DNA of 64,000 bases from Diacronema lutheri. Lineage: Eukaryota; Haptophyta; Pavlovophyceae; Pavlovales; Pavlovaceae. The translations under genes and the position numbers were made by a program. The first letter of the stretch is position 1; each line of letters starts with the position of its first letter. Below are positions 1 through 26,113 of the stretch, piece by piece. The DNA is taken from contig JAGTXO010000016.1 in the NCBI GenBank assembly GCA_019448385.1, forward strand, positions 788,259-852,258. Direction: 5' to 3'. The notes beneath the pieces were generated by a model that saw only the letters and a list, made by a program, of their open reading frames with translations, ran no database searches and was not told the DNA's origin.

Positions 1-302
1 GTCGGCGAGCGCCTCCGCGTCGCGCTGACCGGCGCGGCCAGCGATCGTGCGCCGGGCGGCGTCTGCGCGGTCAGGAGCGCGGTGCGTGGCGGGGGCAGCC
101 CCGATCGCGCCGAAACGCCGCCGCAGACGCGCGGCGCCAAGGCCGCCGCTGGCGTCACCGCCGCCGCCACCGCCGCCGCCACGCCGCCGCCGCCCGCGCT
201 GGGCGCCGCCGCCGCCGCCACCGCCGCCGCCGCCGCTGCTGCCGCCGCCGTGGCCGCGCCGCCACCGCCGCCACCGCCGCCGCCGGCCGGCGACGAGGGC
301 GA

Positions 303-371
<69 letters not shown>

Positions 372-3300
372 GCGCACGTTCTTGAAGCTCGCGCCCAGGG
401 CGCGCGCGGCCGCCTCGGCGCGTGAGGCGTTGCGCGCCGCGTGTGCGCGCGCGGACGCGGCGGCGTCGTCACACGCGTCGGCGCCGCACGCGCCCGCCGG
501 TGCGCGCCGCCGGCGGCGCGCGGGCGCAGGCGAGCTGGCGCTCGCGGCTGCGCGCGCGCTCGCCTCGACGGAGCACGGCGATTTGACGGACGACGCGCTC
601 GAGGCCGCCATCGAGCAGGAGCTGGGCGACGAGCGCGGCCAACTGCTGCTGTGCACGCGGGGCGCAGCGGCGCAAAGGCCCGCGCTTTGCCGGCTCCTGA
701 AGCACGCGTGCGCGTCGGCGCGCGCGGCGAAGCGCGCGCAATTCACGGTGTTCGTCGTGCGCGCGCCCACGCGCGGCGAGCGGGGGGGCGCCGCCGCGAC
801 GCGCGTGGACTCGGTGGTCGAGCTGTCGTGCGCGCTGCACGAGAAGGCGGGCGCGCTCGGCGGCCTCCAGAGCGTCTGTGTGCGTGGCTTTGCCCTCGAG
901 CGCCGCCGGACACTCGACGCTGGCGCCGAGGCCGGCGCGTCCGCCATCGGCCAGGACGAGCAGGTCGAGGCAGAGGCGGGCGAGGCGTCCGTCGCCGGCG
1001 TGACGATGGCCAAGCAGCTGCGTCAGTTTGCCGAGCAAGCTGCCCGCGACGACGTGCTCTTCCACGTCGCCGTGTCCGAGGCCGACGCCCACGCCCGGCT
1101 GGCGCGCGTTGCGGGTGACTATGTCGGCGCGTACAGCGTCGTGCTCGCAGTCGCCGGGCTCGTCTGGCTGGCCAAGGCCGACGAGGTTGCGCCGGCGGCC
1201 GCCCAGCCCGCCGCCGTGCCGCCCGCCGCCCCGCCTGCTGCCGCCACGTCCGCCGACGCCGAGCGCGACGCCTCGCCTTCCGACCGCCTGCGCGCGCTGA
1301 CGCTCGCCGTGCGAGTCGCGCTCGCGCGCGGCGTGCTGCGCCACCTCCTCGCCGACGCGTCGCCGGGCGCGTCCGCGACCGCTGGCGGTAGTTGCGCGAC
1401 GCCCGTCGAGGCGGCCACGTCCGCCGCCGCGCCGCCCGCCACGGGCGTCGTGACGAGTGGCGTTGCGGCGGGCGCTGTGGCGGCCGCACCGGCTGCTGCG
1501 GGCGGTGCGATGGCGGGTGCATCGCCCATCACGCGGCCGGCGAAGCGCGCGCGGCGCACGCTCACCGCCGCTCCAGCCGCCTCGGCCGTTGCGGCCGCTG
1601 GAGGCGCACGCGCGGGCGCACGCGGCGCGGCCGGCGCGCCTCGCGCGCGCGCCGCGCGCGCGCCGGCCGAGTACGTCTGGCTTGCCATCGCGCGCCGGAT
1701 GCTGGCGGCGCGACACGCGGCGGCCGCGGGCGGCGACTTTGTCGCGTCGTGCGTCGCCGCGATGCAGGCCGAGTACGGCGACGGCTGTGCCGTCGTCGTC
1801 GGCGACGCGCCTGATGACGCCTTGGTCGAGGCTGCGGCGGCGGCGCTGCTCGAGGGCAAGCACGCGGCGGTGAGCCTCGGCTGCGTCGACCGGCCGGCGG
1901 TGCTCGTCGTGCAGCGCGCCGTGGACGCGCCCACGTCGCGCGTGCACGGGTGGTGCGCGCACGCGGCGGGCGCCGCCGAGTTTGACGAGGGCGCCGCGCA
2001 CGGCGTGTTCAACGCGATCGTCGAGCGCGCGTGGGCGCTGCGTCCGGACCCGGCCGACGGCAGCCCGCCGCCCACGCGCACGTGGGAGGTCGAGCAAATC
2101 GCTGGCGACGCGCCCGACCAGGCGGGCGTGGCCGCGCTGCGCGTGCTCTACGCGCTCGTCGCGGCGCACGGCCGCTACCGCTCGGCCGCCGCGCTCTTTG
2201 GCGCGCTCGCGCAGCTGCACGCGCCCGACGCCGCCGGCGCGCGCGCGGAGGTCGTCGCGGCGGCGTGCGCGGTGCCGCCCGGCGCGCGGCCGGGCGCCGC
2301 GCCGGCGGCCGCGCGGGACGACGCGAGGGAGCGCGCATGGGACGGCGCGCAGATCGCCGCGCTCGCCGTCGGCGCGGACGCTGCGCGCAGGCGTGTCGCG
2401 CCCGTGCGCGCGCTCGTCGACGCGCTCGGCACGCCACCGACCTCGGCGATCACGGGCGGGCCGGCGGTCCGGCTCGCGGGCGCGGGCGACGGCGGCCACG
2501 GTGCACGGTGGGTGGGCGGGCAGGCGGCGACGCCCGCCGAGCAGCTGCCGAGGGAGCTGCTGCGCGCCTACCACGAGGCGGTGCTGTGCGTCACGCCCGG
2601 CAGCCTCCAGCTCGGCCCGGCGGCGCTCGACGCGGTCACGCGGCCGCGCGAAAACGACACGCTGGAAGGCCTCCTCGCGCGCGTCAGCTGGCAGTGCGGC
2701 GCGAGGGCGAGCACGTGCGCCATGCTCGCCACGTTTTCCGAGCAGGCGGGCACCGGCTCGCGCGTCGCGCTCAAGGCCCTCCGCACGAGCTCCGACCTGG
2801 CCGGGCTGACGGCGGCTGCGGTCGGGCAGCAGGCGCCGCAGACGCCGCCGCCGCCGCTTCTCGTGATGCTCGGCCGCTGCCCCAGCCCGCTCGTCGGCGG
2901 CGGCCTCTTCCCGCCCGACCGCGCGACGGGCGAGCCGGCGGTGCACGCGGCGACGTCCGAGCTCGCCGTCGAGCTGCTGCGCGACGCGCGCGCGCTGGCC
3001 GGCACGGACGGGCGGCTCGTCGTGCTGTGCCTCGAGGCGTCCAACCCGCTCTGGTTCTGCCCCAAGGTGCGCGAGCTCGAGCTGCCGCGGACGCGGTCGG
3101 ACGGCGTGCGCGCGTCCGGCTGCACCTGCCCTGCGACGTGCAGCGATGCGCGCGGCGCGGCGGGTGGCGCTGCCCGCGGCGCATCGACGCGGCCGGCGGC
3201 GCGCGCGATCAACAAGGCGGTGCTCGACCACTTCGTCGCGCTTTTCGGCCGCGAGGGCTTCGCGACCTTTGAGTTTGCGGGCGGCGGCGAGGCGAGCTGG

Positions 3301-6300
3301 CTGTGCGACAGCGCGGCCGGCACGACGACCGTCGCGGCGTGCGCGTCGCTGCCGCCGCGCATGGGCGATGGGCAGCTGGCCATCCGGCGGCACACGCTCG
3401 GCACGGGCGCCGACGCGCCGGCGCACGCCGTCGTCTCGCTCCGCGTCGCGCACGTGAGCCACGCCATCCGCCGCGCGGCGGACGACGGCGGCGCGCGCGC
3501 CGAGCGGATGGCGCGCGCCGCGCGCGCGTTCTGCGATGTGGCGGCCGCGCTGCGCGTCGACGCGATCCTGGCGGAGGTGCCCGAGGACCGCCCGACGGGC
3601 ACGCCCTTCCTTGGCGGGCTGCTCAAATGTTGGGACAAACGCAACGGGAGCTGGACGGCGCCAGCCACGCTCGCGCTCGGAGACGTGCGCGAGGTGGCCA
3701 AGCGGACGGCCGACGCAGCGGCCGGCCGAGCGGACGAGGTCCCTGCGGCTGGCCGTCCGCAGGTCGCGGCGCGCGCGTGCGCTGGCGCGATTGGCGGCGG
3801 CGCGGGCGCGGCGGGCGCCTCGGACGCTGCGCCGCGTGCACTGGCGGGCGCGTCGGGTGCGCGCACGGACGGCGGCCCTGCCGACGCACCGCGCCAGCTG
3901 GAGAGCCGCTACGGCGAGGCGAGCAAGCTCGACCTACCCCAAGATTCCACTACGGGCCGCGTCCTCGACGCTCGCGAGGCCCAGGACCGCGCGCGCGTGC
4001 CTGCTGCGCCCGACGGCACAGCGCTGCGCCGCGTGCTCGACGCCGTCGGCGCGGGCGCGCCCGCGCAGCGCAGCCCGCGCTGGCACGACGAGCGATGGGA
4101 GGAGGTCACGGGCAGCAAGGTTGGCGACGTCGTGAACGACAACGCCGGCGTCGCGCACGAGACGCTCACCGACGAGTACGTGCACCGGCGGCGGCGCGAG
4201 GTGCGGACCAAGGCGACGACCGCGGGCATCCTCGGCGAGGCCGTCGCGCTGCGCAAGCTGGCGGCCGCGTACGGCATCACCGTCGTGTGCAACCTGCCGA
4301 TGGTGCGTGCGGACCCGCACGACAAGAGCGCGCCGTTCGCCTTCTCGCCGGACGGGCTCGCCATCCTCCCCGAAAACAACGAGCAGGTCCTCGTCGAGGT
4401 GAAGACGCTCACCAAGGCGGGCGCCACGGCGCACGAGGACGGGCCGCCGCAGCCGCACCGCGATCAGCTGCAGCTCGGCATGCACGTCCTCGGCGTGAGC
4501 AAAGCGCTCTACGTGCAGTACCTCAGGCACGAGGACCGGATCGTCGTGCACGTCGTGACGCGCGGCGCCGGCTGGCTTGCATTCGCGCAGCCGAGGGTGC
4601 AGGCCTTCTGGGCGCGCGTCGTCGAGCGGCGCGCGCGGCTCGAGCGCGCGCGCGCCGACCACCCGGCTGCGAGCCGGCGGCACCGGCGGCAGCAGACGCC
4701 GGCCGGGCCGCCGCTCGTGCTCGCGCTGGACGGGCGCATCCCCGCCGCGCGCGCCGCCGCGCTGCACGCCGTCGCGCACGGCACCGCGAGCGCGGCGGCG
4801 GTGACGGCGGCGGCGGCGACGGGCGACGCGACGGCGTTGCAAGACGCGATCGCGGCGCTGCGCGCGCCCGTCGGCAATGCGGCGATCGACAGCGCAGCGC
4901 GTGCGGAGCGCGCGGCCGTCGAGCGGGCGATCGCGTACCTCGGGCAGCCGGCAGGCGACGCCGCCGCCCGCGGCACGGCCGAGGCGGCCGAGGAGGAGAG
5001 GACGGTCGACGCCGACATCTGCGCGTTGCTGCACCAGCTCGGCGCGAGCGTGGCGCACGTGCACGTCGAGGACGCGGATTGCGTCACGCGTGAGCACTGG
5101 GGCGGGGCGGTGCTCGCTGCAGCGGGCGACCCGTCGAGCGCCCCCGCCATTTCGAGCGTCATCGTCGCGCACATCGTGCGCCTCGCCGGCTTTGGCGTCG
5201 AGCTCCCGCAGTCGATTCGCGTCGCCCCCAGCACGGCCGACTGGCACGAGGGCTGGCTCGACGTGCAGTGCGTGCTGCTGCGCACGCGCCGGCGCGGGCG
5301 GCGCGACGACGACTTTGTGGCCGTCGTCAGGCGCGGTGGGCGCTGGTTTGCGTGCGAGCCCGGCCGCGCGCGGCGGCTGCAGTGGCGGTCGGTCCTGCGC
5401 CGCGCGCGCGGCGGCGTCGACGGGACCGGCGAGGAGGCGTTCGCGGTCGTCTACGTGCGGCGCGGCGACGCGGCCGGCGACGCGGCTGGCGACGCGCAGG
5501 CCGAACGGGCGCGCGGCGGGCGCGCGCGCAGGCGCACGCGCGGCGGCACGCGCAAGCGCAAGCGCGGCGCCTCCGCCGGGCTCGAGGCGGCCGCGCCCGC
5601 CGGCGCGCCGGCGGGCGCTGCTCACCGCCCGCCCGCCAGGCGTGCCACGGTCGCCGCGCGCACCACGCGCTCTGTGACCGACGCGCGGCACTCGGCGCCT
5701 GCCGCCACGGTTGCACCTGTCTTCGACTGGCGCGCCGGCCGCCCGCCCCCTGCCGCCGCCGCCGCCGCCAAGCGCGGCCAGGCGCTCGAGCCGGGGCAGT
5801 TCGCGCGGCCGCGTGGGCGCGCGCCATGGGGCAAGGTCTGGGACAGAGTCTCGGGTGCGTGGGCGGACAAGCCGACTGGTGCTGCCGTCGCCGCCGCGCC
5901 GCCGCCGCTGCCGCCCGCCGCCGCGCCGCCGCCCGCCGCCGCGCCGCCGCCCACCGCCGCGCCGCCGCCCGCCGCCGCGCCGCCGCCCGCCGTCGCGCCG
6001 CCGCCCGCCGCCGCGCCGCCGCCGCCGCCGCCACCGGCGGCGCTCGGCCGCCGGCAGCACGTCGGCGCGGGCGGCAGCGCGGCGGGCCGGCGGCTCGCGG
6101 CCATCGCACGGCGGCAGCGCGGCGTGCGCGCGCCGCCGCCCGCCGCGCGCTTCCTCGCCACGCTGCCGCCACCGCCACGCGACGGCCTCGCGCGCACGAG
6201 CAAGCAGGCGCGCGCGAGGCGCAACGCGGACGGACGGCCGGCGCACGCGCGCGCGGCCAACGCGCGCGCCTTCTACCGCGGCGTGGAGCTCGGCGTGCAC

Positions 6301-9300
6301 GCGACGCGCGCCATCGTCGACGCGCGCCACGCCGACCTGCCGCAGGCCGTCTTCGTGGCGGAGGCGCGGGCGATCGTCGCGCGCTCCGCCGGCGGCGGCG
6401 CGCTGCTCGCGCCGGACGACGTGCGCGACCTGTGCGACGCGCAGACGGACGCCGATCGCGCTGCGATCTGGGCGTCGGTGGGCGCGCACGAGGCGACGCG
6501 CATCTTCGCGCTCGTCACGCGCAACGCGAGCTTGGCGGGCGCGGCGCTGCTCGTGCTGCACACGCCGGCGGGCGCGCCGGCGCGCGCGCTCGGGCTCGTG
6601 GCGACGCGCTCGCGCGCGCCGTCGACGGGCGCGCCGCGCGACGCGCACAGGGCGCTGGTGCAGCGGTTGGACGTGCTGATGGACGCGATCGCCGCGGCGC
6701 GAGGCGCGTCGCCGCTCGAGCTCGAGCTCGCGCTCGCGCCCGAGCCGCAGAGCGCGTGCAACGCGCGTGCGGCCGCGCTGCTCTGCCTGCAGGCCGTCGC
6801 GGACGCGAGCGGCCGTCCCGCCGCTGAGGACGCGCTGGCCGCGCTCGACGACGCGCGCGGCATCGACCGGCACTGCCACGCCGTCCGGCAGCAGATCGAG
6901 GCGAAGCTCGCGTGGCGGCGCGCCGACGGCGCCGTCGGCGTTGACGGCGCCGACGGCGCGCCCGCGCTCGCGCCTGCCGCCGCACCGCCGGCGTGCGCGC
7001 CGGCGCACGCTGCCGGCGAGGCGGCGGTCGACCAGGCGATCGTCACGCGGGTGCGCGACGCGCTGCGCGCGTGGGCGACGACTGGCACCGCGCCCAGCGC
7101 GGCGGTGCTCGACGACGCCTGCGCCGCGTACACGGCGCGCGCACGCGCGCGCAAGGACGCGCGCACGGCGCTGGGCCCGACGCGCGCGGCCGAGCTGCTC
7201 GCCGCGGCCGCGCGCGGCGGAGCCGACGGGGCGGATGCCGCGCGCGCGCTGCTCGGCGGCACGCCGCGCCTGCTCGTCGTGCTCCTCTGCGTGCCCGTCG
7301 CCGCGCCGTCCGGCGAGCCGCCGCGCCCGGTCGGGCTGCTCGTCGCCGACCGGCCGACGGACGACTCGCGCCCGGCCGCGCTCGTGCGCTACGACTTTGC
7401 GCCGCTCGACGCGGACGTGGCCGTCGCGGTCGGCGCGCATGCCGTCGCGCTGGCCAGTGCGATCTGGCCGCTGCTCGCGGCCGAGGGGGAGCCGCGGCCA
7501 TCGCCCGTCGTGCGCTCGCAGCCGCGCGGCGGCGACGATGGCGCGCGTGCGCTCGCAACGTTCGCGTGCCTCGACGCGCTGATGACCGCCAGCGTCGGCG
7601 CGCACGGCCTCGCGGGCGGCGCGGGCATGCTGCCCGCGCTGGTCGCGCGAGGCGCCGCGGCCGCCCAGCGCGAGCGGCAGCTGCGCGCGGCCGCCGAGAG
7701 GCTGGGCGGCACGGCCGCTGGGTGGCCGGACACGGGCGCGAGCGCGGCGGGCGCGAGCGTCGACGAGGAGGCGCGCACGTACGAGGTCGAGGCGGTCGTC
7801 GACGAGCGCCGCAAGGCGGGCAAGAAGGTGACGTTCCAGTTCCGGATCAGGTGGCGGGGCTACGACGAGAGCGCCGACACGTGGGAGCCTGAGGCCAACG
7901 TGAGCAGCGACCTCGTCGCCCAGTTCCGCAAGACGCGCGACGAGCAGAAGCGGCGCGCGGGCGTATCGGGCAGCGGCAGCGGCGGCGCGGGCGCGGCGTC
8001 GGCATTGGCGTCGGCGCCGCTTCGCGCGCACGGCGAGTCGGGCGCCGCGGGCAAGCGCGCCGCGGCGGGTGCCGCCGCGAGCGCGCGCGACGCCGCGGGC
8101 GCGCGCGCGCCGAGCGTTCCCCGCGCGCGCGGCGTCGAGCGCGCGCGCGTGGACGAGCCCGCTGCGCCGAGCGCGCGCGCCGCCGGCGGCGCGACGGCGC
8201 GCACGCGCGGCAGCGTGCTCCCGGGCTTCGTGGTCAAGCGCTCGACGCTCAACGCGGGGCCGCAGGCGGTGACGGCGCAGCCCGGTGCGCGGAAGGAGCT
8301 GCGGCGCATCGCGGCGGCCGTGCACAGGCTCACGACACAGGCGTACCGCGTCATCAACAAGGTGGTGCGCGACGAGGCTGCGGTGGCGAGCGCGCAGGCC
8401 GTCGGCGCGGCGTCGGGCGGCCCGTCGACCAGCGTGCACACGTCGACCACGATGGACAAGGGAACCGTCCGTGCGATCTTCTCGGCCATCGGCTGGCACA
8501 AGGACGAGAGCACGTACGGTGCAGCGCCCCGAGGCAAGCCCGCCGAGCAAGCCGCCGCGCAGACCAAGGCGGCGACGGCGCGCGCCGTCGGCGAGATGGC
8601 CGAGGGCGTCCAGCCCGTCTGCGCGGTGGGCCTCACGGAGATCCTCGAGGCGGAGGCGACGCAGGTGTCCACCGCGTGCCTGATGCATCCATCGCGCGTC
8701 GTGAACGGGCTGCTCCGCGACGTCGTCCGCGCGGCAGTCGAGCGCGACGAGGCGCTCGTCGCGCTGCCCGAGATGCAGCGAAACGCGCGCGTGCGCGAGC
8801 TGTGCGAGCGGCTGCTGCGCGGCGACGTGGAGGGCGCGCGCGTCGGCTGCCCCGCCGCGCTCGACCGCCACCTGCCCGACATGGTCCTCCACAAGATCGA
8901 CTACAAGTGCACGCCCACGAAAAGGTGGAACTACGACCGGCACACGACGCGCTACTTCCTCGTGCAGATCCGCACCCTGCAGCACGTGGCCGAGGGGCAG
9001 GCGCTGCTCTGCCGGCTCGCGCACATCCACACGCAGCTGACCGGACGGCCGCCGCGGTACAATGTGGCGCCGCTGCGCACGCACAATGTGCGCGCGAGGC
9101 GTGGCTGCCGCTGCCGCCGCCGAGGGCCCAAGCGCGCGCGCCGCCGCCGTGCGCGCCGCCCCGCGGCCAGGTTGGTCACGCGCCCGCGCGCTCGCGCGCC
9201 GCGCGCTGCGCGCAGGTGCCGCGCAACGTGCGCTTCGCCGCGAGCGCCATCTGGGTGACGCTTTCGGATGACGAGCGCAAGGAGCTGCGCGCGCGGCTCA

Positions 9301-10940
9301 AGGCGCTGGACCTGCGCGACCACGATGGCGAGCCGATCAAGTGGACAGGCACAAACGGCAACACCCCGCCGATGTCGGACGTGCGCGTCAGGTACGCGGT
9401 CTTTGCGACGCGCTTCGACATCTCCAACCGCGTCTTCGACTACGCCGGGCGCGAGCGGCCGCCGGCCGATCTGCCGTGGCACGCGCGGCGCTCGTGGGTT
9501 GGCCTCGCGCCGCTGCCGCGCGTGCCGCTTCCGGGCCGGCAGCCCGTCAAGTCGGTGGTGACAGATGGCGTCGCCGTGCACGCCGTCGGGACCGTCCTCG
9601 TGCCGAAGGCGCAGGCGCCGGCCGGCAGCTCGGGCGTCCTGCACCGCTGGCGCCGGCCGGACGGGCGCATCGCCGTCGCGCTCGGCTCCGAGCTGCGGCG
9701 GGCGATCGACGTCGAGGCGGCGGTCGTCGTCGCGGCCGACCCGAACATGGGCAACATCACCACCTACTCTGCGCACGTCGGGCGGGCGGCCGTCTGGCGG
9801 CAGTTCACGCAGCGCGCGCGCGCGCGCGCCGCGGGCTTTGCGCGCGAGACGGCCAAGACCAACGCGGCGCGGCGGCGCGTGCGCAAGGACGGGCGCGGCG
9901 GTGAGTTCAGCGTGGAGGCGGACGAGGCGCGGCTTGGCGAGGCGCACAGCGCCAAGGTGCTCGACGAGGGCGAGTTCCACGCCTTCCACCGCGAGAGCGC
10001 GCGGGTGCGCGAGCGCGCCGCCGAGCACGTGTACGACGCGCCGGCGCGCCGGAAGGAGCGCTGGCGGCGCGACAGCGGCGGGCGGTCCAACGCGGCGCGC
10101 GTCGCCGAGGCGCTCATCGCGGCGCACTGTGTCGACGGCGTGACGCGCGACCGGCTGCTCGTGTGCGTGGGCAAGTGGCTGCGCGACCACAAGGGCGCGC
10201 AGCCCAAGGGCGCGCCGCCCGCCTTCCAGGTGGGGCTGCTGCGCGAGCTGCGGCGGCGCGGCGTCGCGGCCGTCTTCGTGCCCGAGCCGTACACGTCGAT
10301 GCACTGCTCGATGCCGCGGCTCGCCAAGGGCGGCAGGCTGCAGCGCTGCGGCGCGGAGCTCGCGCAGAACCCGCGCCTGCCCGTGGCAAAGGGCGGCACG
10401 CGCACGGTGCACGCGCTCGTCATCTGCCCGGCGTGCAACGGCGGCAAGAAGCCCGTGCACCGCGACTACAACGCCGCGCGCAACATCTTCTACGACGTGC
10501 ACGACATGGCGGCGCACGCGGCCGGGCGCGACACCACGTCGACGCCTGAGCGCTTTGCCCTCGTGCTCGCCTGGTGGGCGCGCGGCGAGGTGTGGGAGCG
10601 TGAGGAGCGCATGGTGCACGGCGAGGGCGACGACTGCGACGACGAGTGCGACGGCGACGACGAGGGCGACGACGAGGGCGACGACGACGACGACGACGAT
10701 GGCAGCGGCGACGGCGGCGGCGGCGAGGGCGACGGCGACGGCGACGGCGACGGAGGCGGCGGCGGCGACGACGACGATGACGGCGGGGGAGGCGGCGGCG
10801 GCGACGGCGGTGGCGACGACGGCGGCGGGCGCGGCGGCGGTGGCGGCGGCGGCTCTCGCGCCCGCACCCCCGCCCGCGGAGCTGCCAGCGCCAGTGCCGG
10901 CGGCGGCAGCGCGCGCGGGCCGAAGCGCGGCCGGCGTTGA
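1..10940 (+). CDS. Giant PD-(D/E)XK nuclease / chromodomain / Fanzor protein (5' partial)
   Basis: One frame is open from base 1 to 9087 and, after a GT-AG intron at 9088-9215, continues at 9216-10940: 3,603 visible residues. The first start-like codon is a GTG at 82, but the frame is open upstream, so the true start is outside the window. Visible parts in order: poly-Ala tract (301-371); unrecognised region; YqaJ-like PD-(D/E)XK nuclease at about 4100-4640 (GEAVALRKL, SPDGL, VEVKTL, then QLQLGMHVLG); Pro/Ala repeats (5880-6030); chromodomain at 7777-7935 (YEVEAVVDERR, RIRWRGY, TWEPEANV); Fanzor N-terminal region and, in exon 2, its RuvC core; acidic Asp/Gly tail. YqaJ nucleases process DNA ends and chromodomains bind methylated histone tails, so a chromatin-targeted mobile-element nuclease is an inference. 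The frame could be two or more genes, because stop-free frames are cheap at this GC content. I am sure of the three domains and less sure that they form one protein. Confidence 0.6.
301..371 (+). repeat. (GCC)n trinucleotide run encoding poly-Ala
   Basis: An almost uninterrupted run of GCC, about 23 units, in frame with the giant protein. It is part of a longer GCC/GCG-rich stretch from about 150. Length variation here would keep the frame. Confidence 0.9.
8452..10940 (+). other. Fanzor (TnpB-like RuvC nuclease) segment of the giant frame, with intron 9088-9215
   Basis: If translated on its own from the ATG at 8452 this would be a 786-aa Fanzor. Exon 1 ends ...LRTHN at 9087 and exon 2 resumes VPRNV... 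at 9216; the 128-nt intron is phase 0, starts gtgcgc and ends cgcag. RuvC-I aspartate is in AADPNMGN (codon 9738-9740). The usual RuvC-II position reads CVGKW with no acid; a glutamate lies in VPEPYTS (10284-10286). A zinc-ribbon is visible as HCS, RCG and CPAC (10425-10436). RuvC-III is RDYNAARNI with its Asp at 10464-10466. Fanzors are eukaryotic relatives of TnpB that cut DNA guided by an RNA from the 3' end of their own locus. The 3' tail is extremely Asp/Gly rich. Confidence 0.85.
10622..10860 (+). repeat. GAC/GGC microsatellite encoding the acidic Asp/Gly tail
   Basis: Runs of gacgac and ggcggc units follow the RuvC-III motif and encode an Asp/Gly/Glu tail on the Fanzor. All visible units are multiples of three, so the frame stays open to the stop at 10938-10940. 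Confidence 0.75.
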
Positions 10941-11339
10941 CGCACGGCCGAGCCGCGCAGCGGTCGACGCTTTGCGGGCTCTGCCCAGGTCGCGCGCGGC
11001 TGGCGACGCGTGCCGCGCGCGGCACGACCGTGCACGCCGCCACCCGTGGCCGAGCGCGCCGCACCAGCCGGCCCGCTCCAACCGCCGTGCGGATCACGGA
11101 CGCTCGCTACGGCTCGTCGGCGCGCGTCACCTGCGCCGGCGGCCACGGCGCCGTCTGCTCCGGCCTCGTCGCGAGCAGCCCGACCGCTGCTCGCCGCCCG
11201 CACGCCGCCGCAGCAACGCTGCGCGTCGTGCTCCCCCGCTCGCCAAACGCGAAGAGCTCCCTCACAAGGACGTCCTTCCGAACGGCCCGCGCTGCACTCG
11301 GGGCGCGATCGTGCCCCTGATCGGATTTGGCTTGACCAT
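10941..11339. other. Intergenic, between Fanzor 1 stop and the desaturase last recognised codon
   Basis: No recognisable gene. It contains an 18-nt perfect palindrome at 11009-11026 (cgtgccgcgcgcggcacg). As the 3' flank of Fanzor 1 it is where a guide RNA could lie, and as the 3' side of the minus-strand desaturase it may hold that gene's missing last exon; neither can be shown by eye. Confidence 0.5.
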
Positions 11340-12259
11340 CTATACGTTGTATTTGTGGTGGAGGACGTGGTAGTCGGCGCCCATGAGGGGGTAGGGCAGG
11401 TGCGGCTCGCCAATGTGGATGTACATGGTCCAGAGCCCGAGCGTGGTCGCGACGGCGAGCACGGCGGCATACGGCACGGGCACGAGCAGCTGCGAGAGCG
11501 GCAGTGGTAGGCCCTGCAGCGTGCCGTCGATCGGCTCGAACGCAAAGCCCGTCCAGACCGTCATCTCGCTCGAGCGCTTGGCCGCGTGGTGCTTGGCGTG
11601 CTGCGCGATGCCGCGCGCGTCGGCGGACCGGGCGAAGCGCCGCGGCGTGAGGGCCGCCCCACGCCGCGCAACCAGCCTCGTCCAAACGGTCATCTCGCTT
11701 GAGCGCTTGGCCGCGTGACGCCGCGCGCGCGCGCGGACCGGGGCGCGCGCGGCGCATGCATTCGCGCGCGAGCGCGCACGTTGAAGGCGGTTTTGCCAAA
11801 GGGTAGGCGGTGGAGGAGGCCCCAATGGACGAGGAAGACGCCGAGCTCGAAGAGCACAAACCACACCACCGTCCATGCGAGCGCGTGCGCGGGCCCGCCA
11901 CACTCGGCGAGCGAGAAGCACGCGCGCGAGAGCCCGCGCGCATGCAGCCACTCGTTCAAGAAGCCGACGCAGCTGTACATCTGGAAAGCGACTTCGCTCT
12001 CGCGGCGGTGCTGGCGCCGCAGCGCGATTGGCGCGCGCGCGGTGCCGCTGCGCGGCGCGAGGCGCTCGACGGCCGCCTGCATCGCGCCGCCGCCCGCGTA
12101 GTAGACGGCGCGCACGGCGAGCGCATAAAACATGTAGACGACGAGCGCGGACGTGGCCAACGAACTCGTGGAGCCGCCCGCGCCGGTGACAAAGGCGACA
12201 GTGGCCGCCGACGCGCCGAGATGGCGCAGCGCCCACGCCACGCTCGTCGCCGCGAGCAT
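11340..12259 (-). CDS. Sterol desaturase-like membrane hydroxylase (C5-desaturase type), C-terminus incomplete
   Basis: Exon 1 is 12259-11780 (160 aa), exon 2 is 11600-11340, joined in phase 0 across a 179-nt intron. The family is di-iron membrane enzymes of sterol synthesis that carry three histidine motifs. Here they appear as HWGLLH at the end of exon 1, HAKHH formed by the very first codons of exon 2, and HVLHH near the end; FAFEPIDG and PLMGADYH are also typical of plant-type C5-desaturases. Exon 1 carries hydrophobic segments at its N-terminus and before HWGLLH. The frame stops directly after HHKYNV, earlier than usual, so either a short last exon starts at the gtatag after the AAC codon or the gene is truncated. 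It is transcribed away from lysA, 156 bp from that gene's start. Confidence 0.75.
11601..11779 (-). other. Intron containing a degenerate duplicate of the downstream exon start
   Basis: Donor GT at 11779-11778 and acceptor AG at 11602-11601, 179 nt. Inside it, plus-strand bases 11679-11717 repeat exon bases 11550-11588 with three mismatches in 39, at an offset of 129. A tandem duplication across an exon edge can produce exactly this arrangement. Confidence 0.8.
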
Positions 12260-12415
12260 CGCTCCCTCCCGCCCTCGCTTGTCGGTGTGGACGGCTCCGC
12301 CGCGCGCCGAAAAGTCGCGGCTTCACCGACTGAGAACTTTTAAAATGTGAGTTTTCTGCTTTTCGCGTCTTCGCGCACGCGTCACGCCATCCCCGTCTCC
12401 TCGCGGTGGGCCACG
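12260..12415. promoter_or_regulatory. Divergent intergenic region between sterol desaturase and lysA
   Basis: 156 bp separate the two predicted start codons. It is locally AT-rich around 12335-12365 (cttttaaaatgtgag, then ttttctgctttt), which stands out in this genome, and probably contains both start-proximal promoters. An in-frame ATG at 12347 would add 23 residues to lysA; I prefer 12416 because a signal peptide begins there. Confidence 0.4.
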
Positions 12416-14101
12416 ATGCGCGCCCTCGTTGCGGCCCTCGCCCTCGTCCCGTTGGCCGGCGCGTTCCGCGCGACGGCGGCGCGCGGCGCGGTCGCGGGCT
12501 CGGCGGTGGCCCGCCGTGCCGCGCCCGTCGCCGCCGTCTCGCCCGGCATCGCCGCCACGTCCGCGTCGAGCCCGCGCTTCTTGTCGGCCGAGCTCGCGCG
12601 GCGCGTGCGCGCCGAGTTTGGCACGCCGGTGTACGTGTACGACGCGGCGCTGCTGAGCGCGCAGGCGCGCACGGCGCTCGCCTTCCCCGCAGCGTACGGC
12701 CTCACCGTCCGCTTCGCGATGAAGGCGTGCCCAAACCGCGCGGTGCTGCAGCTGCTGCGCGGGCACGGCGTGTGGATCGACGCGTCGTCCGGGTACGAGG
12801 TGCGGCGCGCCATCCTCGCCGGGTTCAAGCCGGAGCAGATCTCGCTCTCGTCGCAGGAGATGCCCGACGACATTGGCGCGCTCCTCCAGATGGGCGTCGA
12901 GGTGAACGCGTGCTCGCTCGCGCAGCTCGAGAAGGTCGGCTGCGCGGCGCCGGGTGCGAGGGTGGGCGTTCGCTTCAACCCGGGCGTCGGCTCGGGCGGC
13001 ACGGGCAAGACGAACGTGGGCGGGCCGTCGAGCTCGTTTGGCATCTGGCACGAGCAGATGCCGCAGGTCAAGGCGCTCCTCGCCAAGCACCGCCTCGTCG
13101 CCACGCGCGTGCACACGCACATCGGCTCCGGATCGGATCCGGCCGTCTGGCAGCAGGTCGCGTCGCTCACGCTCGCGCTCGCGCGCGAGCTTCCGGCGGT
13201 GGAGACGGTGAACCTGGGCGGCGGGTACAAGGTGGGACGAATGCCCGGCGAGGCGTCCACCGACCTCGCCACCGTCGGCGCGCCCGTCCGCGCGGCGTTC
13301 GAGGCGTTCGCCGCCGAGACGGGCCGACGGTTACGCCTCGAGATCGAGCCAGGAACATTCCTCGTCGCGAACGCGGGCGCGCTCCTCGCGACGGTGCAGG
13401 ACGTCACGTCGACCAAGGGGTCGGGCGCGGGCGGGCACGACTTTGTCAAGCTCGACGCGGGCATGACCGAAGTCCTGAGGCCATCGCTCTACGGCGCGCA
13501 GCACCCCATTTCAATTCTGCACGCCGCGCCCGCCGCGCCCGCCGGCCGCGTGGGCGGGTACATCGTCTCGGGCCACTGCTGCGAGAGCGGCGACCTCTTC
13601 ACGTGCGCGCCGGGCGAGCCCGAGGAGCTGCTCGAGCGCGCGCTCCACGCGCCGCAGATCGGGGACTTGTGCGTCGTCGACGGCGCGGGCGCCTATTGCG
13701 CGGGTGCGCCGCCCGCCGCCCGCCGCGAGCGCCGCGCGCGCCGCCCGCCGTCGTCCGCGCGCGCGCGCGCGCGCGCGCGCCGGGGCTGCGGCGCGCCGCG
13801 CGCAGCCCCGGCCCGTCCCACGCCGCCGCGCGCGCGGCGCGCGCCGACGGTGCACTGCTGGCGCTGCGCCGCCGTCGCGCGTCTCGCGCCATTCTCGCGC
13901 GCGCGAGGCGCAGGCATGGCGACGAAGAATTACAACTCGTTCCCCGAGGCGGCGGAGGTCCTCGTCGGCCTCGACGGCACCCCGCACCTCGTGCGCGCGC
14001 GCCAGTCGCTCGAGCAGGTGCTCGCCAACGAGTTGCCGCTGCCGCCCGCCGCCGTGCAGGGGCAGCCGGCCGCCGCGGCCGCCGCGGCCGCGCGCGAGTA
14101 G
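12416..14101 (+). CDS. lysA: Diaminopimelate decarboxylase, plastid-targeted
   Basis: This PLP enzyme makes L-lysine from meso-diaminopimelate, the last step of the pathway. Exon 1 is 12416-13703 and exon 2 is 13914-14101, joined by a 210-nt phase-1 intron (GT at 13704, AG at 13912-13913); the product is 491 aa. Landmarks in order: VYVYD, FAMKAC with the PLP lysine, SSGYE, SLSSQE, RFNPG, HTHIGSG, NLGGGY, EPGTF, GHCCESGD, and across the splice GAYCA-GMATKNYN, a typical family ending. The start at 12416 gives MRALVAALALVPLAGAFR, a signal peptide followed by a Phe and a basic Ala-rich stretch, the bipartite leader used for secondary plastids. The intron length is a multiple of three without a stop, so retention would insert about 70 Arg/Ala-rich residues. 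Confidence 0.92.
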   Translation: MRALVAALALVPLAGAFRATAARGAVAGSAVARRAAPVAAVSPGIAATSASSPRFLSAELARRVRAEFGTPVYVYDAALLSAQARTALAFPAAYGLTVRFAMKACPNRAVLQLLRGHGVWIDASSGYEVRRAILAGFKPEQISLSSQEMPDDIGALLQMGVEVNACSLAQLEKVGCAAPGARVGVRFNPGVGSGGTGKTNVGGPSSSFGIWHEQMPQVKALLAKHRLVATRVHTHIGSGSDPAVWQQVASLTLALARELPAVETVNLGGGYKVGRMPGEASTDLATVGAPVRAAFEAFAAETGRRLRLEIEPGTFLVANAGALLATVQDVTSTKGSGAGGHDFVKLDAGMTEVLRPSLYGAQHPISILHAAPAAPAGRVGGYIVSGHCCESGDLFTCAPGEPEELLERALHAPQIGDLCVVDGAGAYCAGAPPAARRERRARRPPSSARARARARRGCGAPRAAPARPTPPRARRAPTVHCWRCAAVARLAPFSRARGAGMATKNYNSFPEAAEVLVGLDGTPHLVRARQSLEQVLANELPLPPAAVQGQPAAAAAAAARE

Positions 14102-14791: not shown

Positions 14792-16030
14792 TCACGGCCC
14801 GCGCAGCTCGAGCGCCTTCTTGTAGATGTTGCGCGCGGCGTTGAAGTCCCGGTCAAAGATGGTTCGGCACCACGCGCAGCGCACGAGCGTCTTGACGACG
14901 CGGTTGGTCATCGGGCTCGACGGGTCGTGCTTGCGCACGCGGACCTGCCAGCGCGTCTTGGTGAAGAAGTCGCAGCAGCTCTTGCCGTCGCACTTGCTGC
15001 AGTCCTGCGACGTGTAGCTCTCGTCGATGAAGCCGATCGTGTAGCCACGCGCGCGGAAGGCGTCGACGATGCCCATCGTCTGCGACGGCATCTTGCCGCG
15101 CTCGTGCCACTTGCCAAACTTGGGGTAGTGCAGCTGCAGACTCCAGTCGCCGACCGCGATCACGACCTCGCCCGGCCCGCCGTACGTCGCCGCGAACGCG
15201 TCGACCATCCTGCTGTGCGCGCGCTGGTGGTTGGAGTAGGCGTGCATGCGGTGCGTGCGGAACCACTCGTGCCCGTACGCGCCTCGCAGCAGCTCGCGCG
15301 CCTCGCGACGCTCGTCCTCGTTGAGCAGCGGCGCGCCGTGGCCGTCGCGGCCCGCGAGCGCCTCCTCGAGCTGCGCGATCGAGCGGCGCTGCGGGTCGCC
15401 GCGCACGACTGTCATCTTCTTGCGCCGCAGCATCCGCTCCGTCGCGCGGCGCTCGCCGGCGAGCCGCCGGTGCCGCGCCGCCGACCAGCTGAGCGTGCGC
15501 GGACGCGTCGCGCCGAACAGCGCGCACGCCCACGCGAAGAAGAGCTTGTTCTTGCCCGGGTCGAACACGACGATCTGCTCGGGCGTGTAGCGGCGCAGCG
15601 TCTCGCGGTCGAGGTAGTCGGTGCGCCCGAGCTCGTCGCGCCCGCCAAGGCGACTCGCGAGTGGCGCGTCGCACGTGCGCAGGACGGACGCGGCCTTGCC
15701 GTCCGTCTGGATCGACGAGACGTGGCCACCCGCGCGGTTGGCGCGCCGGAGCGCGCGCGACTCGGTCATCTTGAACACCACGTTGAAGATGCGCGTGCGG
15801 TTGCTGCCTGCGGTGATCGGCAGCCCCGCGCGGTAGCCTCTGCCGACCGCCCGCTCAAAGTCCTCGGTGCAGCGCAGCCAATCCTGGAGGAAATGGGCGT
15901 CGATGCGGAGGAAGTGGCCGACGATGAGGCTCTTCTTGCCCGAAAGGCGCTTCGGGCCGATCGGCTTGTCGCCGTTGGCCTGCCGCGCGGCGTCGAGCAC
16001 GCGGAGCATCGCCATGTACCCGTCGCCCAC
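14792..16030 (-). CDS. Fanzor 2 (TnpB-like RuvC nuclease)
   Basis: 412 codons as counted from a GTG at 16030. RuvC-I is VFDPGKNKL (about 15549-15575). The normal RuvC-II place reads VGDW, without Glu; the nearby FIDESYTSQDC (about 15003-15035) supplies the alternative glutamate known from Fanzors. A zinc ribbon is seen as CSKC and CAWC, and RuvC-III is DRDFNAARNI (about 14825-14855). Residues between, such as RMHAYSNHQRAHSRM, also fit. The coding frame appears to continue upstream as FDADYDGDHNMG, but a TGA at 16060-16058 interrupts it before YRPPGESNN; restoring Trp there would read smoothly. The gene may therefore start at a non-ATG codon, begin with an unseen exon, or be a recent nonsense allele. 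It differs in sequence from Fanzors 1 and 3 and is head to head with Fanzor 3. Confidence 0.88.
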   Translation of the reverse strand: MGDGYMAMLRVLDAARQANGDKPIGPKRLSGKKSLIVGHFLRIDAHFLQDWLRCTEDFERAVGRGYRAGLPITAGSNRTRIFNVVFKMTESRALRRANRAGGHVSSIQTDGKAASVLRTCDAPLASRLGGRDELGRTDYLDRETLRRYTPEQIVVFDPGKNKLFFAWACALFGATRPRTLSWSAARHRRLAGERRATERMLRRKKMTVVRGDPQRRSIAQLEEALAGRDGHGAPLLNEDERREARELLRGAYGHEWFRTHRMHAYSNHQRAHSRMVDAFAATYGGPGEVVIAVGDWSLQLHYPKFGKWHERGKMPSQTMGIVDAFRARGYTIGFIDESYTSQDCSKCDGKSCCDFFTKTRWQVRVRKHDPSSPMTNRVVKTLVRCAWCRTIFDRDFNAARNIYKKALELRGP

Positions 16031-16146
16031 GTTGTTGCTCTCGCCCGGCGGGCGGTATCAACCCATGTTGTGGTCGCCATCGTAGTCGGCGTCAAAGAGC
16101 TCCCAAGCTGCTGTGGTCCGGCGACACGGCCGGCGCGGCGCCGCGG

Positions 16147-16515
16147 CTGCCGCCCGCGCTCGCGCAGCACGCCGACTGGCTCGTGCTCCCATGCGACTAC
16201 AGCACGGATGACCCCAAGGTCAGGCACACGACCAACTACTTCCTGACGGTGCGCGCGCGCGCGCGCGCGCGCGCCGCGCGGCGCGCGCGGGGACGGAGGG
16301 GGCTACGCACGGGCCGGCCGCGCGACGGTGGCCGCGCCGTCCGCGCGGCGCGCGCGCGTGCCGCGGCGCGCCCCGCGCGCGCGCGCTCCGCGGCGTGGCG
16401 CCGCGGCCGGGCATGGACGGGCGCGCGCCGCGCGGACGACGTGCCGCGCGCGCGCGCAGCAGGGCCACGGCGCGCGGAGCGCTCGACGGCGCTGATGGCG
16501 TGCTCCCCGACCTCC

Positions 16516-16582
<67 letters not shown>

Positions 16583-18273
16583 TTCCTTCCCTTGCGTGCG
16601 CCGCGCAGCCGGATAAGGCGGCGATGGGCGCGTCGCTGCTCGCGCGCCTCGCGATGCTCTACACGCACGTCACCGGCGAGCCGCCGCCGTACGCGCTCTG
16701 CCCCCGGCGCATGAGCATGCAGAAGCGCTTTGTCGACCTGTCCGCGCAGGACCTGTACCTCCTGCTCGACGAGGACGACACGGCCTTCGTTCGCGAGTGG
16801 GCGCGCGAGCTGCCGACGGCCGACGGCGTGCCGCACGACGACCCGCACAGCGCGACCAGCGACCCGCGCGTCAGGAACATGATCTTCGGCCACTTCGTCA
16901 ACCTCGACGAGCGGGCGATGCGGTGGACAGGCCAGCAGCTGCCCGGCAGCGACGTGACGGCGGAGCAGCGGCCCACGTATGTCGGCACCGCCGTCCCACC
17001 CGCGACCGCGTCCGCCGGACCGCAGCTGGCGGTGTACCTGCGCCACAACGGCCACGCCTGGCAGGTGGTCGTGCCGGTGTTCAAGCCGCCGCCGCCCGGC
17101 GGCAGCAAGTCCTTCCTCGACGATTGGCGCGATCCCAACGAAACGTTCGACGAGGCGACGCCCAAGCAGCTGGCCGAGGCGATCGAGGTGCACGGCCTCA
17201 AGACGGCCACGGTGGACCCCGGCTCCGACGGCTTCGTGACGTACGCGCCGAACGGCCACGGGCTCGAGCCCACCTCGGTTCGCCTTACGCAGCGCGAGCG
17301 CGCCGCGCGCGCGGGGCACGCGCGCGAGCGCAGCAAGCTCGAGGGCGCGCGGCAACGGCCGCTCGTCGAGCCGGGCGCGCGCGCCGGCCCGTCGGGGCCG
17401 GGCGGCGCGCGGCCGCGCGCGCCGCGTGCTCCGCCGACGGCGGCCGCGCTCGAGGCGGAGCTCGGCGCGGCGCACGGCGGGCGCACCGCGCTCGGCGCGA
17501 ACGACCAGGCCGCCTACGCGCGCGCGCACGAGCGCGTGCGACGGGCTACGCTGCCCGTGTACGGCGCGCGCGCGCGGCTGCGCGCGCGCAAGCGGCGCGG
17601 CGGCGCGAACCGGCGCGAGTGCGCGCGCGCGGCGGCGCGGATCGTGCGCGCGCACGCGACCGACCGAGGGCTGCGGCCAGACCAGCTGCTCGTGCTCTTC
17701 GGCGATTGGCTCCACCGGTCGCGTGGCGGCGGCTGCGTGCGCGGCAAGGCGCCGGCGCTCGGCGTCGGCGTGCTGTGCGCGCTGCGCCGGCGCGGCGTCG
17801 CGGCGACGCTCGTGCCCGAGCCGCTCAGCTCCAAGTGCTGCTCGCAGCTGCGCGAGGTGCGGGGCGCGCCCGCTGCGAGCGCGGCGCCGGCCGCCGACGC
17901 CGGCGCAGGCGCTCCCGCCGACGACGGCGCGCCAACGACGGCGGACGAGGCGGCGGGGCAGCCGCCGCCGCTGCAGCGATGCGGAGGCACGCTGCACCCG
18001 TACGCGCGCAGCTCGCCGAGCGGCCGCGGCGCGTGGCGGGCGACGCGGTGCGACGCGTGCGGCATCATCTACCACCGCGACTGGACGGCGGCGCGCTGCA
18101 TCTACCACGATGTGCTCGACATGGTCGCCGACCACCTCGGCAGGCATGAGCGCATCACGTCCGAGCCCGGCCGCTTCAAGCGCGTCAAGCAGGTCAAGGC
18201 CTTTTGGCAGCGCGCCCTCGGTCGCGAGAGAGAGCACGACGAGGGCGAGCTGCAGGTGAACGAAGACGAGGCG

Positions 18274-18305
<32 letters not shown>

Positions 18306-18308
18306 CGG

Positions 18309-18339
<31 letters not shown>

Positions 18340-18469
18340 GGCGGCGGCGCCGGCGCCAGCGGCAGCGGCGTTGGCGTCCTCGGCGGCGGCCGCGGCGGCG
18401 GACGCGGGGGCGGCCGCGGCAACGGTGCTGGTGCCGCCGGCGCCGCCGAAGGTGCCGCAGCCGCCGCCG

Positions 18470-18500
<31 letters not shown>

Positions 18501-18912
18501 TGCCGCTGCCGGCACCGGCACCGGCACGACCGGCGGCAACGCGCGAGGTTCGCTCGCGTCCGCACGCGACGCGGCGCCGGAGGCGAAGCGCCAGCGTCGC
18601 GTCAGCACGGCAGCCGCGAACGGCGCAGCCCCTCGCCGGTCGGCGGCGACCTTGCGGCGGGGCGGCTCGGCCAGCCCGAGCACGCGCGCCACGCCCCCGG
18701 GCCCGAAGCGGGCACGGGCGAGCCGCAGTGGCGCACAGGACGCGGCCGCCGCCGTGCGCGCGCGCGCGCACGCGGCGCCGCGCGTGGCGGCGCCGCGAGG
18801 CGGCGCAGCCGGTGGCGCGACGAAGCGCGCCTGCCACACCCTGCTGGAAACAACGCTTCATGGCGATCTTCAGCCTCAGCACGAGCCGCTTGCGGCTTCG
18901 CACGCCCCGTAA
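16147..18912 (+). CDS. Fanzor 3 (TnpB-like RuvC nuclease), 5' end unresolved
   Basis: Exon 1 homology begins near LPPALAQHADW (16147) and ends NYFLT at 16248. A phase-0 GT-AG intron occupies 16249-16608 and exon 2 runs 16609-18912. No ATG precedes the intron; the frame is open from 15928, so the start is not fixed. The exon 1 end RHTTNYFL matches Fanzor 1 RHTTRYFL, placing them in one subfamily, but their introns lie at different points. RuvC-I is TVDPGSDG (about 17211-17234), the alternative Glu is in VPEPLSSKCC (about 17815), the zinc ribbon includes RCGG and RCDAC, and RuvC-III reads HRDWTAARCI, keeping the Asp but replacing the usual Asn with Thr. After about 18250 the protein turns into a long Gly/Ala low-complexity tail. 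The nuclease could be active or decaying. Confidence 0.8.
16249..16608 (+). other. Fanzor 3 intron, 360 nt, holding a 65-nt C homopolymer
   Basis: Donor GT at 16249-16250, acceptor AG at 16607-16608. The homopolymer at 16518-16582 sits just before the acceptor and makes an extreme polypyrimidine tract, followed by ccttccttccc. Length is a multiple of three, with no stop in the coding frame. Confidence 0.75.
16518..16582 (+). repeat. Poly-C tract, 65 nt
   Basis: An uninterrupted run of C from 16518 to 16582. Such runs can form i-motif or G-quadruplex structures and are prone to sequencing and length errors, so the exact count is uncertain. Confidence 0.9.
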
Positions 18913-19451
18913 GGGTCGTATAGAGCTGGATGTGCACGGCTTGGATGGTCGCCGTGCTGAGCTGGTAATGCTTCGGGCTGAGGCCACACGCGACGCTGTG
19001 CAAGCTCGGGCCCTCGGCGGAACTACACGGGACGTGGCCGGATTGGCCAGCGCCATCCGACCCCACCACCGTCCTCCCTGCTCGTCGGTGTGTAGACGTC
19101 GAGGAAGCGGCACGCCCTCGAGCGTGCCACGGTGTCGCAGCGCGTACGCCTGCACTTCGTGCCCCACGTCGTCTTGGCCTCCGGCGCCGGCGGCCGCCAT
19201 CCTCGTGGCCTTTCCCGCCCAGAAACTTCAGTTCCTGATCATCATGAACGCACGGCGCAAATTGACGGCGAGAAAGCAGACGAGGAACGCGCACCTCAAC
19301 GGCGCGGGTCACAAGCGGATCCACATGGTGCGCGCGCACATCGGCAAGCTCATGCTCTCGTCAAATTTGGGCAGGCAGCTGGAACACAAAGTCGAGAAAG
19401 CAAACAATCAGCTTTGGACCAAACAGATCGCCTGAGTCAGCCTCGGTGTCG
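18913..19451. other. Intergenic with weak open frames
   Basis: No recognised product. A minus frame between about 19200 and 19025 (MAAAGAGGQDD..., then HEVQAYALRHRG) and a plus frame ending at 19435 (MNARRKLTARKQ...) look more like protein than random sequence, but neither matches a family I know. They may be remnants of a gene broken by the adjacent retroelement. Confidence 0.35.
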
Positions 19452-19467
19452 TAGTATGTATGAGTAG
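19452..19467 (+). repeat. Target-site duplication, left copy
   Basis: tagtatgtatgagtag, identical to 24120-24135. The two copies flank the retroelement. The earliest in-frame ATG of the RT frame (19460) lies inside this duplication, so it belongs to host DNA and is unlikely to be the native start. Confidence 0.88.
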
Positions 19468-24135: not shown

Positions 24136-24582
24136 TATGGGAACTGCCAAAAAGTTGTCACCAGCGTCGAGCAAAAGCTCGGCGGCGACGCGCGATGCGG
24201 CAGGAGGCCGCTCCTCCCGCGTCGCAGCCCCCATCAGAGGTGGTGCCAGGTCGCCCTGGCGTTCGGGCTGCGTCGCGGGCTGGGCCGGCGCCGCGGGCAA
24301 AGGGGTGGGGGAAGGAGCAGCTGCCGCCGCCGCGCGCTGCGCCTTGAGCGCGAGGCGGTGGGACTCGGCGCGCCCGCGAGCCCGCACGAGACGCCGGCGA
24401 CCGCCGCCGTCGCCCGTCGGCCGTCCGCGCCCAGCGCGCCACACCAGCACTCGGCCCCGGGCCTCTGTGACTGTCATTCTCGCCCTCCACTCGCCTGCTG
24501 TCCGTCTGCGCGGGTGTCTGCGCGCGCTTTGACTGCTTCTCGCGCCCGTCCGCTTCCGAGTCAGACTGAAGCTCAGCAGACC

Positions 24583-24713
24583 CCGCCTGCCATCGCGAAG
24601 GCCCCAGCGGTTGTCGGGTTGAGCGGGTTGTGGATGCCATAAGGCCCCTGCGTGAAAAGCGGCGCACGCGCGGCGTGAGCGGCGACCGAAGCTGCCGTGG
24701 CAGTAGTCTGCAT
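24583..24713 (-). CDS. Exon-like segment with GIHNPLNP peptide, copy A
   Basis: Reads MQTTATAASVAA... through QGPYGIHNPLNP to AFAMAGG at a candidate GT donor. The same peptide occurs in copy B and, inverted, at 28381-28500; its conservation in three places argues that this frame is translated. Confidence 0.4.
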
Positions 24714-25730: not shown

Positions 25731-25761
<31 letters not shown>

Positions 25762-26071: not shown

Positions 26072-26113
26072 CGCACTCACTGACGGCGAGCATCTGCATA
26101 CTACTGGGGAGCT

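Follow-up and report, generated by a model that had tools for sequence, protein, structure and literature searches.

The window analysed here is a 64,000-nucleotide stretch of the haptophyte alga Diacronema lutheri (C11:788259-852258, contig JAGTXO010000016.1), whose left part belongs to a mobile element of about 32 kb with a main gene that is predicted to join a RecE-like exonuclease, a chromodomain and a Fanzor nuclease in one giant reading frame. Fanzors are known from many transposons. Further copies of the element were sought in the Diacronema lutheri assembly (43,492,796 bases in 103 contigs); the resulting match lists are lower bounds throughout, and a missing listed partner is no proof of absence. 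The features of the element and of its right flank are as follows, in window coordinates.

1..11345, + strand: 3' 11.3 kb of the 32.2-kb mobile element, with the right end ...TTGACCATCTATAC (blastn against other copies, 99% identity)
1..9087, + strand: exon 1 of the giant gene, the last 3,029 of its 6,080 codons (open frame, codon-position G+C)
~4072..4560, + strand: predicted RecE/YqaJ/lambda-exonuclease-like PD-(D/E)XK nuclease (PHROG 434 RecE-like exonuclease, 4.7e-17)
7774..7932, + strand: predicted chromodomain, amino acids 2594-2644 of frame +1 (PF00385, 3.4e-12)
8224..9087, + strand: putative Fanzor N-terminal (REC/WED) part, homologous in its C-terminal stretch to the window's second Fanzor; domains named as in SpuFz1, by analogy
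9088..9215, + strand: predicted phase-0 GT..AG intron of 128 bp (frame switch, gap-free alignment of the spliced protein to the second Fanzor)
9216..10940, + strand: exon 2, predicted Fanzor RuvC/zinc-finger core with a TGA stop (PF07282, 4e-6; alignment; residue positions)
10941..11345, + strand: non-coding 3' region up to the end of the element, a candidate site for an omega (guide) RNA by its position
11346..12701, - strand: N-terminal part of a sterol-desaturase-like gene cut by the insertion (FA_hydroxylase, 1.6e-8)

An open reading frame (ORF) scan finds frame +1 open over window 1-9258 and already open at the window's left edge, and the start at window base 1 given in the original prediction was mistaken, as the frame continues for 9.1 kb and the element for 20.9 kb upstream of the window. 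The open frame of the giant gene comprises 6,080 codons up to window base 9087, its first in-frame Met lies at C11:779124, six codons past a stop, and together with the 574 codons of exon 2, which ends in an acidic, Gly-rich tail from ~10,615, it predicts a protein of ~6,650 residues. Codon-position G+C, low at position 2 and high at position 3, follows a coding track in frame +1 to ~9,087 and in frame +3 from ~9,216 to ~10.7 kb, and the coding signal of the giant frame is interrupted in repeat-rich stretches ~0.8-3.8 kb upstream of the window. A second Fanzor gene, with the motif DPG in its core, is found on the + strand at window 16100-18909. The intron at 9088-9215 is supported because this second Fanzor aligns with the spliced first one gap-free over the predicted junction, with 28.9% identity over 218 residues (1e-8) when the low-complexity filter is on and 34% (3e-77) when the filter and the composition correction are off. 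Antisense frames in this 80% G+C sequence reach 1,787 codons, and we considered whether the giant frame could have arisen by chance in such DNA. That explanation was rejected and is hardly credible, given significant domain matches in the same frame, a frame switch at the predicted intron and a period-3 pattern. The long frame is also more than chance since the chromodomain is embedded in 3,000 or more open codons in 123 of its 150 listed genome matches, the other 27 being outside frames of that length.

The nuclease in exon 1 was described as YqaJ-like in the original prediction, in which the PD-(D/E)XK assignment stands and the name is better replaced by RecE/lambda-exonuclease-like: PHROG gives the significant match, whereas Pfam YqaJ (0.019) stays below its cut-off, as does the NCBIfam lambda-exonuclease family TIGR03033 (2.7e-7) below its curated one. 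The nuclease motifs occur in the order D (4351-4353), ExK (4396-4404) and HRDQLQLGM with its Q (from 4456), which agrees with the D...ExK...Q order that we take to be typical of RecE/YqaJ exonucleases, and the profile match and motif together argue for predicted membership of this group. The closest PDB relatives of the chromodomain are of CDYL, CDY1 and HP1 types (best 2dnt, 2.5e-11), and Y, W and Y occupy what are, on the pattern of HP1, presumably the aromatic-cage positions. The domain match and the cage place it in the HP1/CDY type, with predicted histone binding. Searches of the rest of exon 1 inside the window found no NCBIfam or Pfam family, and Pfam found none in the upstream half. 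By eye, two stretches of the giant frame (L011:866-1500 and L011:9690-9900) resemble Ulp1/C48 cysteine proteases, with H, D, Q and C in order, and a third, weaker one lies near window 6739; no profile matched these stretches, and PDB sequence searches of two parts gave nothing relevant.

The Fanzor of the giant gene is recognized by its TNB domain (PF07282), narrowly over the cut-off (27.3 vs 26.3 bits), and by its residues. The RuvC triad (D 9738, E 10284, D 10464) and the zinc-finger cysteines (10305, 10347, 10425, 10434) are intact. The motif published for Fanzors, D-X(125,275)-[TS][TS]-X-X-C4 zinc finger-X(5,50)-RD (PMC3627910), is present as D 9738, 184 residues, T-S-M-H-C, four Cys, 8 residues and RD at 10461. 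A DPG at RuvC-I has been described as nearly, not strictly, exclusive to Fanzors (PMC10711439); the giant-gene Fanzor reads DPN there, in contrast to the second Fanzor. Because SpuFz1, a proven Fanzor, uses D383 and N385 (PMC10432273), DPN was not treated as excluding a Fanzor. The TDG motif in the WED domain is given as the mark of Fanzor1 (PMC10711439) and occurs in exon 2 at 9561-9569; on this one motif the protein would be of Fanzor1 type. A comparison of the Fanzor core with PDB sequences found nothing significant (the best match, at 0.19, is unrelated, and Cas12f1 stands at 0.25).

Between the nuclease, the chromodomain and the first exon of the Fanzor there is neither a stop nor a break of the coding signal, which supports a fusion of all three in one predicted polyprotein frame; the giant gene may be expressed as a single protein. 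The original prediction, which had put a Fanzor, a chromodomain and a YqaJ-like nuclease into a single frame interrupted by a phase-0 intron, is in this part borne out at the level of sequence by the profiles, the coding track and the alignment to the second Fanzor. It missed the ~6,650-residue frame, the 32-kb high-copy element and the two other Fanzors of the window. Its further proposal, that insertion sites could be chosen by chromatin state, is conjectural, and the copy in the window lies within a gene. The combination had also been proposed to be undescribed, and our literature search, which lay outside most subscription journals and bioRxiv, agrees in finding no Fanzor with YqaJ and no YqaJ with a transposon and a chromodomain; among papers with both Fanzor and chromodomain, the one consulted is unrelated.

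The whole C11 copy of the element spans ~C11:767392-799603, and near-identical sequences occur throughout the assembly, with at least 98 matches to the Fanzor core (98-100% identity), 150 to the nuclease region (98-100%), 150 to the chromodomain region (99-100%), 124 to a helicase gene near the left end (97-100%) and 107 to the 5' coding end, or N-terminal tile (100%). Merged into places, these amount to at least 150 with the chromodomain, 191 when the nuclease is included, 196 once the Fanzor core is added and 212 after adding 114 of the 148 TNB matches (the 34 left out resembled other Fanzor families by score or frame). If most of the at least 107 N-terminal-tile copies are full length, we estimate that the family makes up ~3.3 Mb, or 7-8% of the assembly. 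The C11 and C26 copies share 99% identity over 18.9 kb and 12.4 kb. Copy sizes are 32.2 kb (C11), 31.0 kb (C26) and at least 29.6 kb (C22), the latter two running into contig ends, and the three copies differ mainly by single bases outside homopolymers and tandem repeats. The first comparison took in five other copies, of which two (C9:1361121, C13:239638) lack the 5' part; the C32 stretch was compared over only 2.1 kb. The domains are also linked across the genome. A listed chromodomain lies 0.5-3.5 kb upstream on the same strand for 82 of the 98 listed Fanzor cores (none listed for 16), a listed Fanzor core or TNB match lies downstream for 113 of the 150 listed chromodomain matches (none listed for 37), and a listed chromodomain lies downstream for 109 of the 150 listed nuclease matches. 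Among the matches listed, 64 of the 150 chromodomains have no linked N-terminal match, a count in which truncation, contig ends and partners missing from the listing are not told apart.

The ends of the element are sharp. The right terminus reads CATCTATAC in 19 of the 20 loci read with flank, the exception (C9d) reading CATCTAAC, and six right ends lie at contig ends, where C1, C8, C32 and C33 read CTATAC, C6 reads CTATAA and C26 breaks off some ten bases short. The left end reads TATATA(G/C)GGCGCGGTCC in 16 of the 18 copies in which it was found, with G or C as the base before it in 15 of these 16; the other two copies are without TATATA. Forty matches each to the first and the last 200 bp were scored at 100%, and the left end gave one further, partial match at 81%. 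In the window copy, the insertion splits a gene whose N-terminal part, ...HHKYN, is in the right flank and whose C-terminal part, FGMFTVLWDSAFGTIKHP, is in the left flank; we call it sterol-desaturase-like on account of a motif that we take to mark that family. Duplications of at least 9 bp are absent in 13 of the 14 copies with both flanks, while one copy has a duplication of 13 bp, and duplications of a few bases, such as TATA, are possible. The near-constant ends and the scarcity of longer duplications recall Helitron- and IS605-like elements. This junction test used the 14 copies with both ends and omitted C9b and C86 (left end not found), C9c (right end not found), C10 (left stretch outside the contig), and C8 and C33 (running out at the end of their contigs).

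In 34 flanking stretches of 300 bp, TATA occurs 29 times per 10 kb against 3.3 in 61.6 kb of host DNA from the same contig, and GTTAGTAT 7.8 times against 0.2, an enrichment that partly reflects a shared dispersed repeat. Two insertions follow GTTAG, and a related repeat that is unbroken at this point reads GTTAG-TATA, and the left TATA may therefore derive from the target; the right flanks of both copies do not continue the repeat, and the suggestion that TATA is part of the target is a weak one. A preference for telomeres was considered, as 17 of the 150 listed chromodomain matches lie on the minus strand less than 4 kb from a contig start. A telomere-specific element was rejected: contigs such as C1, C8, C13 and C32 stop at, or 1-2 bases from, the 3' terminus of the element, whereas TTAGGG-like repeats close the contig of the window itself, and these stops are read as assembly breaks.

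Near the left end, the element carries a PIF1-type helicase (L010:2500-4904) whose best PDB match is the Helitron transposase Helraiser (9e-26, vs 7e-6 for PIF1), followed by a ubiquitin hydrolase-like gene (4e-9). The helicase changes frame after its first motifs, and since all of the 124 or more listed copies match end to end over that change, the copies have this frame break, or an intron at that place, in common; either introns account for it or the family depends on the helicase of another element. Part of the region upstream of the helicase resembles, by eye, a single-strand-binding fold. Separately, L010:1140-1440 and 1690-1990 in the left part of the element are inverted stretches with GTGTAGGGTGTAGG telomere-like repeats.

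This helicase raises the question of whether the element is a giant Helitron2-type rolling-circle element in which the Fanzor, the chromodomain and the nuclease are captured passengers and which is mobilized by a Rep in trans, with no need of the polyprotein. Beyond the helicase and the absence of duplications of at least 9 bp from 13 of 14 copies, both of which a Helitron-like origin fits, such an element would account for the constant right terminus in 19 of 20 loci and for the 5' part missing from two of five compared copies, and Helitron2 elements of Chlamydomonas with Fanzor1 and intact 3' ends have been published (PMC3627910). The genome holds one PF14214 Helitron Rep match (C63:35738-36019, 8.3e-23), on a contig without a listed element copy, and it is a possible helper. 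However, Pfam finds no Rep/HUH domain in the element ORFs searched, and a six-frame scan of the element for HUH motifs gave ten matches, one of them in the giant frame and none in a convincing context. For terminal inverted repeats, a 10-base match (9/10) does not exceed chance, 1173 of 2000 random pairs scoring equally well. The 3' end is not CTRR; it has 5-bp stems 22-38 bp from the end, with a DNA fold z of -0.10. Ends were also counted for signs of one-ended transposition; left and right ends gave the same number of candidates (269 each, with only ~40 scored), a count that does not establish an excess of 3' ends. The large frame, moreover, is open in most listed copies. The element was not filed as a Helitron because no Rep was found in the ORFs searched and the ends give no clear sign for or against asymmetric terminal inverted repeats (ATIR) and a 3' hairpin, and we regard the passenger explanation as a serious alternative that is nevertheless unlikely.

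Viral descent of the element also needs to be weighed, as viruses too have RecE/YqaJ nucleases (PHROG matches) and Fanzors (PMC3627910). Among the Pfam matches of the element frames searched there is, however, no capsid, polymerase or packaging gene, and in these ORFs Pfam likewise detects neither capsid nor PolB nor integrase, the marks of a Polinton or virus. Scans of viral contigs for the Fanzor core, the nuclease and a three-Fanzor alignment detected no relative, a search of phage records found none either, and the ends of the element are sharp and repeated. An endogenous giant virus or virus-like element is thus a very improbable source.

The anatomy of the element, its domains, frame, copy number and ends can be regarded as established from sequence comparison. 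The function that we propose for them has, in our judgement, about an even chance of being right: the giant gene would be the principal gene of a transposable element of ~32 kb and high copy number, and its polyprotein an RNA-guided machine, tethered to chromatin, that cuts, resects and copies. The Fanzor, guided by an RNA transcribed from the right end of the element into the flank, would cut the matching empty site, the RecE-like exonuclease would resect the cut ends to 3' single strands, the element would be copied in by recombination, and the chromodomain would tether the complex to chromatin with methylated histones. A first insertion at a new site would need strand-transfer chemistry from elsewhere, perhaps from a Helitron-like Rep in trans. 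This proposal draws on the domain matches, the single coding track over 18.2 kb, the linkage of the domains across the genome, the recent spread, the intact Fanzor residues and an excess of synonymous changes in the RuvC part, and additionally on the Helraiser-like helicase, the absence of duplications of at least 9 bp from 13 of 14 junction pairs and, weakly, on GTTAG-TATA. The synonymous excess comes from a selection test on the differences among eight copies, five of them partial, in which the RuvC part, one of several examined, had 16 of 41 changes synonymous against an expected 19.8% (P = 0.0035). The differences among the eight copies created no stop in any coding part.

Several observations weigh against the proposed machine. 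In 98 of the 107 listed N-terminal matches the giant frame breaks off at 1,345-1,505 codons, upstream of the three domains, and only 9 of the 107 stay open past 3,000 codons; ~100 codons ahead of that stop, the C26 and C22 copies differ from C11 by 4 bp (GCGC). No synonymous excess was found in the exon 1 part inside the window (29 of 106 vs an expected 23.5%, P = 0.20) or in the N-terminal part (9 of 41 vs an expected 24.9%), and since only the RuvC part has such an excess, the recent copies appear mostly to drift, with constraint visible on the RuvC part only. The RNA fold of the candidate guide RNA (10938-11343) is not unusual (z = -0.97), and Rfam gave no match to it. The element has no transposase among the domains found, and both the copying by recombination and the tethering to methylated histones are steps that we infer.

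The split frame would also suit an arrangement in which the domains act in separate proteins, made from several genes or as processed products that merely share a frame; internal promoters are possible, and the two Ulp1-like modules noted by eye could cut a polyprotein. The part that holds the nuclease, the chromodomain and the Fanzor nevertheless lies in one frame of ~4,500 codons in most listed copies, with no stop or coding-signal break from the nuclease to the first Fanzor exon and with at least 3,000 open codons around the chromodomain in 123 of 150 listed copies, and we consider separate proteins distinctly unlikely. The proposed polyprotein machine also has a stronger form, in which one polypeptide, combining a methyl reader, an RNA-guided nuclease and a RecE-type exonuclease, would be a complete chromatin-directed homing engine, its reader locating the site, its nuclease cutting it and its exonuclease readying the ends for the 32-kb copy, and would have driven a recent burst to well over 100 near-identical copies. 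We find this form doubtful, slightly more so than the passenger explanation.

Known systems share some of these properties. The Fanzor1-bearing Helitron2 elements CRe-1/2/3 of Chlamydomonas resemble the present element in their algal Fanzor, constant 3' end, 5'-truncated copies and lack of target duplication, the last reported for full-length copies (PMC3627910). They differ in that the element here is 32 kb long with no ATIR ends found, whereas the available part of the CRe account contains no nuclease or chromodomain fusion (PMC3627910). SpuFz1 shares the RuvC D/N...E...D and zinc-finger arrangement, whereas its locus of ~2.1 kb has a single ORF and inverted repeats, and a cut-and-copy idea for Fanzor has been put forward in the same work (PMC10432273). 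Helitrons and Helentrons with accessory domains are alike in their Helitron-type helicase, cysteine-protease-like accessory gene and large size, and Helentrons carry protease and RPA domains; here, in contrast, no Rep was found, and the accessory domains are others and lie in one giant frame (PMC6431247). The giant Gypsy-like Burro retrotransposons likewise encode a polyprotein of ~5,000 residues with many accessory domains, but they are retroelements, and the element frames searched here gave no reverse transcriptase match (PMC6431247). Phage RecE/YqaJ exonucleases (PHROG 434) share the nuclease family and motif order, whereas here the nuclease is found in a eukaryote and in one frame with a chromodomain and a Fanzor. 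The Diacronema lutheri genome paper names long terminal repeat (LTR) and long interspersed nuclear element (LINE) repeat classes, and the word start 'transpos' does not occur in its available text (PMC8379373). An element that perhaps makes up 7-8% of the genome would be a new giant transposon family. In a culturable alga, it allows a direct test of two ideas, that copy-in by recombination is driven by Fanzor cutting and that chromatin marks guide the process, and a natural single chain of Fanzor, chromodomain and exonuclease could be a lead for genome-engineering design.

Beyond the element and the split gene, the window holds a third Fanzor of another family on the - strand at 14795-16057 (TNB, 2.6e-10). 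The upstream part of the second Fanzor meets it at ~16.06-16.1 kb, an arrangement suggestive of nested or truncated insertions. Thirteen other genome places share one near-equal TNB score, and seven of them lie in open frames of 1,484-1,779 codons, perhaps additional fusions of a Fanzor or perhaps frames open by chance. Farther to the right, a long frame with a reverse transcriptase domain (RVT_1, 2.3e-9), perhaps LINE-like, occupies 19436-23977 on the + strand and is followed at 24182-28285 by a direct duplication of ~2.2 kb with 96-100% identity in the reported blocks. A protein kinase fused to armadillo repeats lies at 59100-62066 on the + strand, similar repeats of 144 bp (48 codons) occur at 60.8-62.4 kb, and from 63550 to 64000, at the contig end, a TTAGGG-like repeat turns into GTGAGG repeats, probably the telomere.

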